Positions 16,462-35,429 of a stretch of DNA of 39,619 bases are shown here, one piece after another. Source of the DNA: Acidimicrobiaceae bacterium (lineage in GTDB: Bacteria; Actinomycetota; Acidimicrobiia; Acidimicrobiales; Palsa-688); assembly GCA_030838045.1 (NCBI GenBank), contig JAUTXN010000141.1, positions 1 through 39,619 on the forward strand, written 5' to 3'. Position 1 is the stretch's first letter. Every line of letters begins with the position of its first letter. Position numbers and translations under genes: made by a program. Below the pieces are notes generated by a model. That model ran no database searches, was not told the origin of the DNA, and saw nothing but the letters and a program-made list of their open reading frames with translations.

Positions 16462-16529
16462 ACCCCGCCGACATCGCACGTCCAAACCTAACCGGCGGCC
16501 GCGACGGTGGGACCGCGATGCGACTGGCG

Positions 16530-16567
16530 GGAGTACAAACCGTTGTATCCACGACGGTTTGTACTCC
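16530..16567. repeat. perfect 14-bp inverted repeat (hairpin), 10-base loop
   Basis: GGAGTACAAACCGT at 16530-16543 pairs exactly with 16554-16567 around a 10-base loop. It lies in the 167-base gap between the DyP peroxidase stop and the next lipoprotein start, both minus strand. There is no T-run on either side, so a simple intrinsic terminator is not supported; an operator, RNA-processing hairpin or small palindromic element are alternatives. Confidence 0.85.
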
Positions 16568-16628
16568 GGCCTGGCCGGCTGGCCGCCTGGCCGGGCGCCG
16601 GACCGGCCGCCGGGGCGGTTCGGTCCAG

Positions 16629-31804: not shown

Positions 31805-32800
31805 TCACTTGGGTGACCTCGGGTCAAGGAGGAACGGGACGACCCGCAGATAGATCCCGCCATAGTTGCCGTAGATGCCCTTGGGGAAGTCGACCGAGAA
31901 CCGTTGCAGCCAGTCGAGCAGGACCTGGAGGTCGCCCAACGAGCCCACGATGGTGGCGGTGACCGCGTCGACCTGTTTGATCTCCCGGTCGATGTCGGCC
32001 TGGTACTTGTTGAGGCTGTAGTCGGCCGCCTCGGCCAGGTGGGTCAGCGAGGCCAGGGCGGTGACCGCCTGATTGCGGTCCTTGGCGAGCAGTGTCGTCG
32101 TGGCGGCCAGATTGCTCAGCAGGTTGGACAGATCCGGGGCCCCCGCCGCCAACGTCTGGGTGGCGTGATCGAGGCTGTCGATCACCTGGCCGATCTCCTT
32201 GGTCCGGGTGGCCAAGGTGCCCGAGATCTGATTGAGGTCGCCGATCAGCACCCCCAGCTGCGGCCCCCGGCCGCCGAAGCCTTGGGCGCCGGTGGCCACG
32301 ATCGTCTGGACATCGGTCGCCGTGACCGCGCCCAGCAGTTTGACGGCGGTGTCGGCGACGACCTCGAGCTCGGGTTGCTGGACCGAGTTCGGGACCTTGT
32401 CGCCGTTTTGCAGGAACGGTGCTTGGCTCGGAGCGGCCAGTGGTCGCAGCTCGACGAACCGCTCGCCCAGCAGCGAGGTGGTGCGCAGGATGGCCTCGGA
32501 GTTCTTGGGGATCCGCACGCTGTTGTTGATACGGAGCTTGACTTCGGACTGGAAGTCCTTGGTCAGGGTGATCTTGGTGACCGTGCCCACCCGGAGGTCC
32601 GCCACCTGCACGCCGCCGCGGCTCTGCAGGTCGCCCGAATCGGAGAAGTAGGCCGTGACCGTGTAGCCGCCGCTACTGCAGGCCGACAGGAGGGTAGCAA
32701 CCAGGATCGCGGCCAATACCAGGGCCGTCCGGCGACCGTTGTGTTCAAAACGCGATGGTATAGCTACGCGTTTTGAACACAATGAACTCGGGGGGCTCAC
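31805..32800 (-). CDS. mceE: Mce family lipoprotein, position E
   Basis: A 331-residue Mce protein with lipobox LLSAC (Cys41) and an MCE domain (VTAYFSDSGDLQSRGGVQVADL to LLGERFVELRP), then the helical tunnel region. Start GTG 32800 overlaps the mceD stop (GTGA), as at mceA/B. With this start the n-region before the signal helix is unusually long, and residues 7-21 are encoded by a perfect inverted repeat (32739-32782); no better start lies between the repeat and the hydrophobic core. MceE homologues (LprK) are usually lipoproteins, which agrees. Confidence 0.85.
   Translation of the reverse strand: MSPPSSLCSKRVAIPSRFEHNGRRTALVLAAILVATLLSACSSGGYTVTAYFSDSGDLQSRGGVQVADLRVGTVTKITLTKDFQSEVKLRINNSVRIPKNSEAILRTTSLLGERFVELRPLAAPSQAPFLQNGDKVPNSVQQPELEVVADTAVKLLGAVTATDVQTIVATGAQGFGGRGPQLGVLIGDLNQISGTLATRTKEIGQVIDSLDHATQTLAAGAPDLSNLLSNLAATTTLLAKDRNQAVTALASLTHLAEAADYSLNKYQADIDREIKQVDAVTATIVGSLGDLQVLLDWLQRFSVDFPKGIYGNYGGIYLRVVPFLLDPRSPK
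32739..32782. repeat. perfect 16-bp inverted repeat (hairpin) inside the 5' end of mceE
   Basis: TTGTGTTCAAAACGCG at 32739-32754 is matched exactly at 32767-32782 around a 12-base loop. It begins 15 bases after the mceD stop, and in mRNA would form a strong hairpin just after the mceE start. AT content is well above its surroundings. No T-run; candidates are a processing or attenuation hairpin, or a small palindromic element inserted in the signal-peptide region. Confidence 0.92.
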
Positions 32801-34275
32801 CACAGTTCCCCCAAGGCGTCGTGGGCCCACCCGGCGAGGGTCGCCACGGGACCGCGCTGGGGGGCGGGGGGCGCCGAGGCGACCATGCCGTAGCCAGCCA
32901 CCTGCGGCGCCGCGGCGCTGCCGCTACCGATGAGGCTGAGCACCGCCGCCAGAGGGCTGGCGGGTTGCGGCGTGGCGTCGAGGGCCTTCTTGCCCGTGGC
33001 CGGCGCCTTGGTCGTCGGGGTGGTGCGGGCGGCGCTGCCCGCCGGGCCGTTGGCCTTGGCCGCGGGGCCCGCACCCGCGGCCGGCGCCACCGGTGCGGCG
33101 GCGCCCGCGGCCGGGGCCGGGGTCTGGCCCAGGGGGAGCTGGATGCTCCCCGGGGCACATTGGGGCAGCACGTCGAGCAGCGGGATGGCGAGGCACAGCG
33201 GCAACCCCAGCGCCTGCAGCAACCCGTTGACCGTCGACCCGAGGCTGTCGCGAAGGTCGATGCGGTGGTAGGTGGGGTTGTAGGCGGCGACGAAGCCCGC
33301 CTTGCCGTCCAGGTTGGGCCCGGCGACCAGTTGGGGCAGCGACGACAAGAGGGTCGAGACGTTGTTGAGATTGCCGTCCAGGGTCTGCACCAGGTCGGAG
33401 AGCGACTTGATGTCCTCCTGCAACGGCGCGGCGTGCTTGGTGACCAGGTCGAGGGCGTTGGTCGACACGCTGGCCAGGCTGGTGATGAGGCTGGCGATGG
33501 TGCCCCGCTCCTGGGCCAGGAGCGAAGTGGTCTGGGCGAAGAGGTCCATCACCTGGCCGAGCTGCGACTCCCGGGTGTCGAGCACGGTGGTGAACTGCTG
33601 GAGGTTGTCGATTAGGGCGACGAGCTGCTGGTCCTTGTCGGCCAGGGTGTTGGTGATGCCCGCCAGGCTGCGGATGGCGTCGTTGACGTTCTGCCCGTTT
33701 CCGGTCAGGTCGTCGTTGAGGTTCGTGATCAGCTTGCCGGTGGCCTGGGGATCCAGCGACTTGAGCAGGTCGTTCACCGCCGAGAGGGCCTCGTCGGGCT
33801 CGACGGGGACCGAGGTGCGGTCGACGGGGATGATTCGTTGGTCCGCCGCGGCCGGATCGAGCCGGGGCTGGCCCTGCACCCAGGCGGGGAACAGCTGGAC
33901 GTAGCGGGCGCCGAGCAGCGATTGGGGCACGATGACGGCCTTCACGTCCCGGGGCAGGGGGACGTCCTTGCGGACCGAGAACGACACGCGGACCTGGTTG
34001 TCGTTGATGACCTTCAGCGACTGGACATGGCCCACCGTCATGCCCAGCACCTTCACCTCGTTCTGGGAGTACAGCGACACCGTGTTGCGGAAGATGGCGA
34101 CCAGATGGTCGCTGGCAGTGCCGCCGAAGCTGCAGCTCGTGAGGAGGGCGGCGAGGAGGAGCGTTGCCAGGCTTGACGCGGCGAGGCGCTTGGCCCGACC
34201 CGCGGCCCTCTTGAAAGGCAGCACGGGGCGCCGTTGGGTACCGGGGCGGCCCTTTTCCCCGGTCATGGTCTTCAT
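32797..34275 (-). CDS. mceD: Mce family protein with lipobox, position D
   Basis: A 492-residue Mce protein. The N-terminus has a basic stretch and a signal with LLTSC (Cys48), so it may be a lipoprotein like MceE; in typical operons MceD is anchored by a transmembrane helix. MCE domain about 50-130 (LGMTVGHVQSLK, SLLGARYVQLFP), then a long helical tunnel region with repeated N-x-x-L heptads, and a disordered Ala/Pro/Thr C-terminus (about 410-470). ATG 34275 overlaps the mceC stop (ATGA). Confidence 0.88.
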   Translation of the reverse strand: MKTMTGEKGRPGTQRRPVLPFKRAAGRAKRLAASSLATLLLAALLTSCSFGGTASDHLVAIFRNTVSLYSQNEVKVLGMTVGHVQSLKVINDNQVRVSFSVRKDVPLPRDVKAVIVPQSLLGARYVQLFPAWVQGQPRLDPAAADQRIIPVDRTSVPVEPDEALSAVNDLLKSLDPQATGKLITNLNDDLTGNGQNVNDAIRSLAGITNTLADKDQQLVALIDNLQQFTTVLDTRESQLGQVMDLFAQTTSLLAQERGTIASLITSLASVSTNALDLVTKHAAPLQEDIKSLSDLVQTLDGNLNNVSTLLSSLPQLVAGPNLDGKAGFVAAYNPTYHRIDLRDSLGSTVNGLLQALGLPLCLAIPLLDVLPQCAPGSIQLPLGQTPAPAAGAAAPVAPAAGAGPAAKANGPAGSAARTTPTTKAPATGKKALDATPQPASPLAAVLSLIGSGSAAAPQVAGYGMVASAPPAPQRGPVATLAGWAHDALGELW

Positions 34276-35429
34276 GGCGCCGGCACCGCCAGGGGGAGGT
34301 GGAGGGCGCCGAGGGCTTTGATCAAGGCGGTGCACAGGGCGTCGAGCGGCGAACCGTCGGGTGTCCCCTTCAGGGCGGCGACGCAGCCCAGGACGTCGAA
34401 GCCGATCGTCTTGATGTACACGTCCTGCCACGGGCCGTGTGACGTGGCCAGGGCCATCGAGTTCACGCCCGGGCCCAGGGCGGCCAGGATCTTGTTGATG
34501 TCCGACTCGTGGGCCGCGATGGAGCCGAGCGTCGGGTGCAGGCGGGTCAGGATGGCGTCGAGTGTCGCCTTGTTGGTCGCGATGAGCCGGTCGAGCTGGG
34601 CCACGGCGCCGTTGGCCGCCGTGAGACCGACGGCGATGTCGTTGCGGCGCTGCTGGAGGTTGAGCAGGATGCCCTGGCTCTGGTCTATGAGGCTGACCAG
34701 GACCTGATCCTTGGCGTTCAGCTGCTTGGACAAGGTAGCGGCCCGGTCCAGCAGCTCGCGGACCTGGGCGTCGCGGGCATTCAGGGTGTCGGAGATCTGG
34801 GTCACCGAGGTCAGGAGCGTGGTGATCTGCTCACGCTTGCCCTGGGTGACGCCGGCCAGTTCCTTGATCAACTGGTTGAGCTTGGCGGTGTCGGTGGCCT
34901 GGATGTTGGTGGTGGCCTTGGTGAACAGGCTGAAGATGTCGAAGGGGATCTCGGTGCGGTCGATCGGGATGACCCGGGCCGAGGGCGCCAGCTGGTCGAG
35001 GAACGGCGCCGTGGCGGCGCCGGTCAGGCGCACCGCCCGGGCGCCGAGCAGCGTCTCGAGGACGATGTGGGCCTGGGTAGAGGGGCCCAGGTGGACGCCG
35101 TTGTGCACGTTGAGGCTGACGCGGACGCAGCCCGCCTCGGCCCCCTGGATGCCGATGAAGTTGGGGTCGGGGGATTTTCGGGCGCACGGGCCGGCCTGGT
35201 GGACCGCCTCGACCTTGGTGACCCGGCCCACCCGGACGCCGGCCAGGAGGACGTAGTCGTTGGTCGAGATGCCGCCCGAGTCGACGAAGATGGCCTCGAC
35301 GGAGTAGCCGTGCTCGAGCAGGTGCTTGACGCCGATGGCCAGCGCCCCGCCCACGATGAGCACGATCACCAGCACCGAGGCGATGCCGACGACGAAGGGG
35401 TTGCGGTCCCGAAAGGACTTGACCGCCAT
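34272..35429 (-). CDS. mceC: Mce family protein, position C
   Basis: A 385-residue Mce protein with an N-terminal transmembrane helix (VVGIASVLVIVLIVGGALAI), MCE domain (VEAIFVDSGGISTNDYVLLAG to LLGARAVRLTG) interrupted by a Cys-containing loop (CARKSPDPNF to AEAGCVRV), and the helical tunnel region with an ARDAQVRELLDRAATLSKQL coiled segment. Starts 3 bases after the mceB stop. Confidence 0.9.
   Translation of the reverse strand: MAVKSFRDRNPFVVGIASVLVIVLIVGGALAIGVKHLLEHGYSVEAIFVDSGGISTNDYVLLAGVRVGRVTKVEAVHQAGPCARKSPDPNFIGIQGAEAGCVRVSLNVHNGVHLGPSTQAHIVLETLLGARAVRLTGAATAPFLDQLAPSARVIPIDRTEIPFDIFSLFTKATTNIQATDTAKLNQLIKELAGVTQGKREQITTLLTSVTQISDTLNARDAQVRELLDRAATLSKQLNAKDQVLVSLIDQSQGILLNLQQRRNDIAVGLTAANGAVAQLDRLIATNKATLDAILTRLHPTLGSIAAHESDINKILAALGPGVNSMALATSHGPWQDVYIKTIGFDVLGCVAALKGTPDGSPLDALCTALIKALGALHLPLAVPAP

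Follow-up and report, generated by a model that had tools for sequence, protein, structure and literature searches.

DNA uptake sequences of the Neisseriaceae reportedly form dialects, in which a short genome-wide sequence takes a form that varies between related species. REP and REPIN elements with their RAYT proteins are, according to the relevant parts of the sources (PMC8049555, PMC2817692, PMC3686654, PMC3733652), short, non-autonomous hairpin palindromes with many copies per genome. Passages of PMC3733652 place REPs mainly between convergent and codirectional ORFs, with some inside genes, often ones of replication or repair, and give their tags as GTAG or CGTC, the CGTC class being described there without a dedicated transposase, while part of PMC3686654 describes REP classes that vary around orthologous RAYT genes of related strains. 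Palindromic insertions that keep the reading frame are known from Rickettsia, whose palindromic elements (RPE, 105-146 bp), like MITEs, are mobile, and have a stop-free frame by which they stand in conserved protein genes (PMC2229807, in the sections concerned).

Here we describe a palindrome family that came to light through a hairpin in an mceE-type gene of an Acidimicrobiaceae bacterium, within a 39,619-nt stretch of DNA (the window). The window genome (G000; 4.0 Mb, 380 contigs) is a draft, as are all genomes compared here. The family shares with REP/REPIN elements, as far as the passages cited above describe them, the short hairpin form, the many non-autonomous copies per genome, the convergent and codirectional sites, the occasional site in a replication or repair gene, and sequence classes that differ between relatives. 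It differs from them in having no constant tag, no Y1 transposase found in four of five carriers and fewer copies, and in that copies at shared positions bear different ends in two congeneric genomes. It is therefore not filed as REP proper, since location, size class and coding insertions are shared but tag and RAYT are not. Like the RPE it is a mobile palindrome with a stop-free frame found in frame in conserved protein genes, but its core is only 44 bp, no relation in sequence is apparent, and its host is an actinobacterium. Like the Neisseriaceae dialects it is a genome-wide short sequence with a species-dependent form, but it consists of tens of fixed-length palindromes with almost no solitary half-sites. 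No published description of the family was found in the literature searched, and in the part of PMC12306157 concerned Acidimicrobium ferrooxidans appears merely as a row of counts.

The hairpin in mceE

The mce genes of the window lie on the minus strand and encode products with matches to TIGR00996 ('MCE family protein') as well as to two domains, MlaD and Mce4_CUP1. The name mceE is a putative one, taken from gene order and from a lipobox (LSAC) as we read it, and not from a model match. The preliminary description had reported a perfect hairpin in this gene, translated as MceE residues 7-21 and lying in an AT-rich segment, and all of this is borne out: its coordinates are exact (Table 1), the two 16-nt arms are 100% complementary around a 12-nt loop, the G+C content of the core is 41% versus 69% in 32 pooled sequences of the window genome, and the core codes for residues 7-21 when GTG 32800-32798, which overlaps the mceD stop codon, is taken as the start. 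This GTG is a candidate start only and not proven, as three start codons are possible; GTG 32803-32801 lies just upstream in the same frame and TTG 32782-32780 lies inside. Arms matching at 16 of 16 positions with loops of 3-20 nt are expected about 0.0014 times per 39.6 kb of the same composition (analytic estimate), and the arm has two matches within the window at up to 3 mismatches, versus 0.04 expected from shuffles. The window contains a second near-perfect hairpin at 16526-16571 (21-nt arms at 90%, 4-nt loop), whose sequence is unrelated to the palindrome family.

Table 1. Features of the mceD-mceE region (positions in the window)
Feature	Position	Strand	Remarks
Palindromic core, 44 bp	32739..32782	-	left arm 32767-32782, loop 32755-32766, right arm 32739-32754 (as in mceE mRNA)
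Family-alignment unit, 66 columns	32728..32793	-	oriented as in every copy
mceE-type gene, MCE family lipoprotein	31805..32803	-	GTG start at 32800 or 32803
mceD-type gene, upstream of mceE	32797..34431	-	stop codon overlaps mceE start
Likeliest inserted segment relative to G001	32736..32791	-	ends uncertain by ~8 bp; net difference 48 bp
Stretch common to window and C37 copy	32723..32807	-	85 bp at 92%, extending into the mceD end

Empty and filled sites

The mce cluster was compared with that of a single same-genus genome, G001, which is 79% complete and in which loss of an element is possible at any one site. The gene order is the same and the G001 mceE-type protein is 96% identical to window residues 21-330; its gene lacks the palindrome, and no family member was scored anywhere in the 7-kb mce stretch of G001. 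Counted from the upstream GTG, MceE has 332 residues in the window and 316 in G001, a net gain of 48 bp or 16 residues with the frame kept, and the inserted residues (SLCSKRVAIPSRFEHN) stand ahead of the signal peptide's hydrophobic core. Where precisely the insert begins and ends is uncertain, as the flanks have diverged too far for the junctions, including any target-site duplication, to be read. This comparison of mceE 5' ends, which the preliminary description had proposed, supports its suggestion of a recent insertion into a tolerant n-region.

A second coding insertion is found on contig C33, where a copy lies in an alanine-rich stretch of an open frame that matches error-prone DNA polymerase; the match to NF004225 (E 8e-242) stays under the curated cut-off because the end of the locus cuts the frame. 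The copy encodes SLCSQSASISSGFEHN in the same frame as the MceE insert, the two following the pattern SLCSxxxxIxSxFEHN, and the polymerase homologue in G001 is without the insert. In-frame insertion into conserved genes by way of a stop-free frame, as in RPE, is thus seen twice, in MceE and in the polymerase. Flank pieces of the 20 G000 copies that have no known partner were also searched in G001; at least one flank was matched for 11 of the 20, and none of the 12 loci reached in this way contained the element. The copies on C280, C260 and C37 are missing at aligned G001 loci, the alignments being clean for C280 and C260 and fair for C37 and C33, while those of the C282, C298, C366, C175, C242 and C127-type loci are poor and rearrangement could explain absence there. 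A converse case is the G001 copy on C112, where G000 (C126) has CCATTGTGGTC only, possibly the remnant of half an element. Judged by sequence comparison, these empty and filled sites demonstrate movement of the palindrome, and terminal inverted repeats together with insertion polymorphism between relatives are features of MITEs.

The direction of one such movement may be visible. The 85 bp shared with the C37 copy include AACTGTGGTG of the mceD end, and since this also belongs to the mceD end in G001, the C37 copy seems to derive from the mce locus and to have brought along some of the host flank.

Dispersed copies in the window genome

A genome search for the 16-nt arm at up to 3 mismatches, also proposed in the preliminary description, gave 32 places in G000 versus 7 for the reversed control. 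The pattern TGTTCA-N{20,40}-TGAACA occurs at 28 places, every one with a spacer of 26 nt, and at none in the reversed control; the core length is thus 38 bp in 28/28 copies although 32-52 bp was permitted, and the 28 copies align without gaps. The constant TGTTCA ends of this set are imposed by the search pattern, and other ends occur among the three extra copies recovered by a covariance model built from it (31 places in G000; 32 with a later model, R2). A short palindrome repeated at 31-32 places and mainly extragenic corresponds to what is described for REPs. The window copy forms a close subfamily with those on C37 and C175, and in 29 of 31 copies the reading frame used in MceE is stop-free. 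The copy at G000:C260:36598-36657 is accompanied by an extra half-site, TGAACACAATG, 12 bp further on, and contigs C277 and C298 share a repeat of ~843 bp (91% identity) that spans the palindrome at both places.

RNA structure and location relative to genes

The mRNA strand of the 66-nt unit folds at -28.6 kcal/mol (z -5.4), and the hairpin starts ~18 nt past the mceE start codon, where structure could slow initiation. It is nevertheless very improbable that the mceD-mceE junction has an mRNA hairpin specific to this locus that tunes the MceD:MceE ratio or serves as a processing site, in view of the dispersal of the element, its absence from the sister mce cluster, and the lack of an Rfam match and of strand bias. 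The preliminary description had considered a strong RNA-level function between mceD and mceE; as a property of this locus it is not supported, given the ~30 other places, most of them intergenic, the G001 cluster that lacks the palindrome, and the Rfam result (window stretch, no match at E up to 1; nine loci, none at gathering score). A locus-specific RNA device was set aside once the dispersed copies and the empty site in G001 were found. A strand-specific RNA constraint had also been suspected from U-G pairs in G001 stems, and was rejected as G-U does not outnumber A-C among the stem mismatches of 53 copies (outer 23 versus 29; inner 13 versus 18). The inserted hairpin may affect mceE expression, and any such effect would be a by-product of the insertion and not its origin.

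From the five genomes that carry the family (see below), 73 copies were analyzed, of which 62 lie between two called genes, 9 at edges and 2 inside genes, according to a crude home-made gene caller; the window copy was called intergenic because the caller had shortened mceE. The 62 flanked copies comprise 28 in convergent, 30 in codirectional and 4 in divergent gaps, compared with 11, 74 and 10 among 95 background gaps of <400 bp. Convergent gaps are enriched (28/62 vs 11/95, Fisher p 3.3e-6; 11/27 vs 11/95, p 0.0013, in G000 alone), with the qualification that the copies are not independent, some being counterparts of one another. This preference for convergent and codirectional intergenic places is also that of REPs. 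The enrichment, together with the three of four copies of a further genome (G059) that take up the whole 54-66 bp separating two convergent genes, would suit a family of bidirectional transcription terminators whose copies are alike as functional 3'-end hairpins. A T tract (at least 5 T in the 8 nt after the stem) is present at just 2/146 strand ends, which is not what defines an intrinsic terminator, and a known terminator was dropped on that ground. In addition, the arms in G000 are weak and AT-rich, the copies have a sequence in common and not structure alone, and some lie inside coding genes. We consider the terminator explanation quite unlikely, with factor-assisted termination possible as a secondary role.

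End sequences among genomes

The taxonomic family of the host is represented by 32 genomes, of which 5 are carriers and 27 have no copy at E 0.001. Every carrier has an end sequence of its own, which is matched between the two arms. In addition to G000 the carriers are G001 (19 places), G010 (12), G012 (7) and G020 (5). The G001 copies have the same length as those of G000 and a similar centre (identity within the genome 0.866), but TTGCCA or TTGTCA ... TGGCAA replaces TGTTCA ... TGAACA at the ends, and further spellings occur in G010, G012 and G020. The right-arm hexamer is TGAACA in 28/31 G000 copies and TGGCAA in 18/19 G001 copies, and the closest relative of every copy is in its own genome (31/31 for G000, 19/19 for G001), even at positions shared between the species. 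Inner arms in G020 (L183, L190, L193) read AAAGGAGGTG / CACCTCC(T)TTT, letters that coincide with those of the ribosome-binding consensus and the 16S rRNA 3' end, with unit lengths of 65-69 instead of 66.

The arms change together. Over 60 of the 73 copies, 82.4% of stem positions are paired compared with 64.5% after shuffling, and double changes number 180 versus 67; since the shuffles ignore relatedness, the size of this excess should not be read as a probability. When the structure is slid instead, which keeps relatedness, at most 47.5% are paired and double changes reach at most 76.

Beyond the family, a scan of 397 genomes of the order matched 7 at 1e-4 under stricter filters with 13 candidates scored per genome, and G001 and G012 are not among the matches listed. 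G059, from another family of the order, has four copies of a palindrome in its own spelling, GTTTGGTCAATCGG... (L243, L247, L248). The exact pattern occurs at five loci in genome_contigs, one of them in an Acidimicrobiaceae MAG (PMHH01000170.1), while the other four are from unrelated phyla and their number is near chance (3.7 by our own estimate).

Concerted change at shared positions

Ten G000 copies have a counterpart in a homologous G001 locus. A single alignment runs through the element in 6/10 of these pairs, and in 4/10 each of the two 40-bp flanks scores above the 95th percentile for random pairs. True counterparts do not resemble each other more than re-paired copies do (core identity 0.693, with 3179/5000 permutations as high; 0.716 and 1239/5000 for the six best-aligned pairs), in a test that has low power at 6-10 pairs and gives a slight excess for true pairs. 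This is what would be seen if ectopic gene conversion among copies homogenized the shared positions with no dedicated factor. The homologous stretch is, however, just ~44-70 bp, and homology of this length is short for efficient recombination; moreover, conversion alone cannot seed new places. Gene conversion is on these grounds an unlikely explanation.

A few copies do not conform. TGGTCA ... TGACCA is found in the C198 copy of G000 and in one G001 copy, and a G001-like copy is present on C304 of G000; these minority spellings are as expected of relics. If the palindromes were binding sites of a chromosomal protein (architectural, terminator or regulatory), a TGGTCA-like half-site would have become TGTTCA or TTGCCA, with all sites following a change in specificity under selection. 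The symmetric, concerted change of three stem base pairs at shared positions agrees with such a history, as do the spacing fixed in 28/28 copies, with TGTTCA half-sites 32 bp apart centre-to-centre (about three helical turns), the stems that do not favor G-U over A-C, and the sites at convergent gene ends. Point mutation and selection are not sufficient, however, for whole cassettes newly placed within genes (mceE, DNA polymerase) or for the one copy that seems to bear the flank of another, and the interiors are also alike within a genome beyond the half-sites, as the centres in G001 illustrate. Binding sites that track a protein are therefore a possible explanation, although one we lean away from.

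Mobilizing enzymes

Y1_Tnp (PF01797), the RAYT domain, has no match in G000, G010, G012 or G020, all of which are incomplete genomes, and is matched in 3/21 genomes (G001, G005 and G016). RAYT/REP proper was dropped on this negative search of G000 and three further carriers. GTAG was found near the end of 2/73 copies and CGTC in 21/73 (anywhere in 18 nt on either side), and the alignments show no constant tag at one end. Among 77 of 119 neighbor references, the 25 most frequent of 117 Pfam families are all housekeeping and include no recurrent transposase. All 21 exact places of CATTGTGTTCA are in or beside copies; no autonomous parent element of the kind that accompanies MITEs was seen, the end motifs being nearly all within copies. 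A viral origin was dropped as two exact patterns gave no match in viral_contigs.

Discussion

The hairpin in mceE is very probably a member of a dispersed family of short, non-autonomous mobile palindromes that are REP/REPIN-like in size, behavior and location. As there is no strand preference, T tract or Rfam match, and no Y1 transposase in G000, the family is read as a mobile palindrome that acts at the level of DNA. Against this count the mobilizing enzyme and the visible autonomous parent that were not found, the switched ends at shared positions, which are unlike simple transposition, and the dependence on one incomplete same-genus genome with possible loss at each site. The best reading of the family as a whole is that of untagged REP-like palindromes that evolve in concert with a putative factor.

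How such palindromes might spread and change can be outlined provisionally. A putative DNA-handling protein would recognize the palindromic ends and copy the element in trans, the dialect would track the specificity of this partner, and old copies would be overwritten, or selected, toward the current dialect. The element would persist in mceE by virtue of its stop-free frame in one orientation and of a signal-peptide n-region that tolerates added residues. In its strongest form, each genome of the lineage has one current spelling of a fixed-length palindrome at tens of places, and a putative dedicated, sequence-specific protein both inserts new copies and rewrites the existing ones where they stand; we offer this tentatively, as a possibility with the balance against it.

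What appeared to be a regulatory hairpin in an mce operon becomes evidence of a mobile palindrome family able to lengthen exported proteins in frame. Two congeneric genomes have elements at the same places with ends that are spelled differently and yet are matched internally, and the family is thus a compact natural case of dispersed sites changing in concert. The cause may lie in a partner protein, in gene conversion or in repeated insertion; the question concerns REP-like repeats in general, and it is testable here because carriers and non-carriers occur in one taxonomic family. If the copies are indeed rewritten in place, their spelling would drift as a unit, and the family would be a genomic mark that updates itself and stands apart from the RAYT/REP and uptake-sequence systems.
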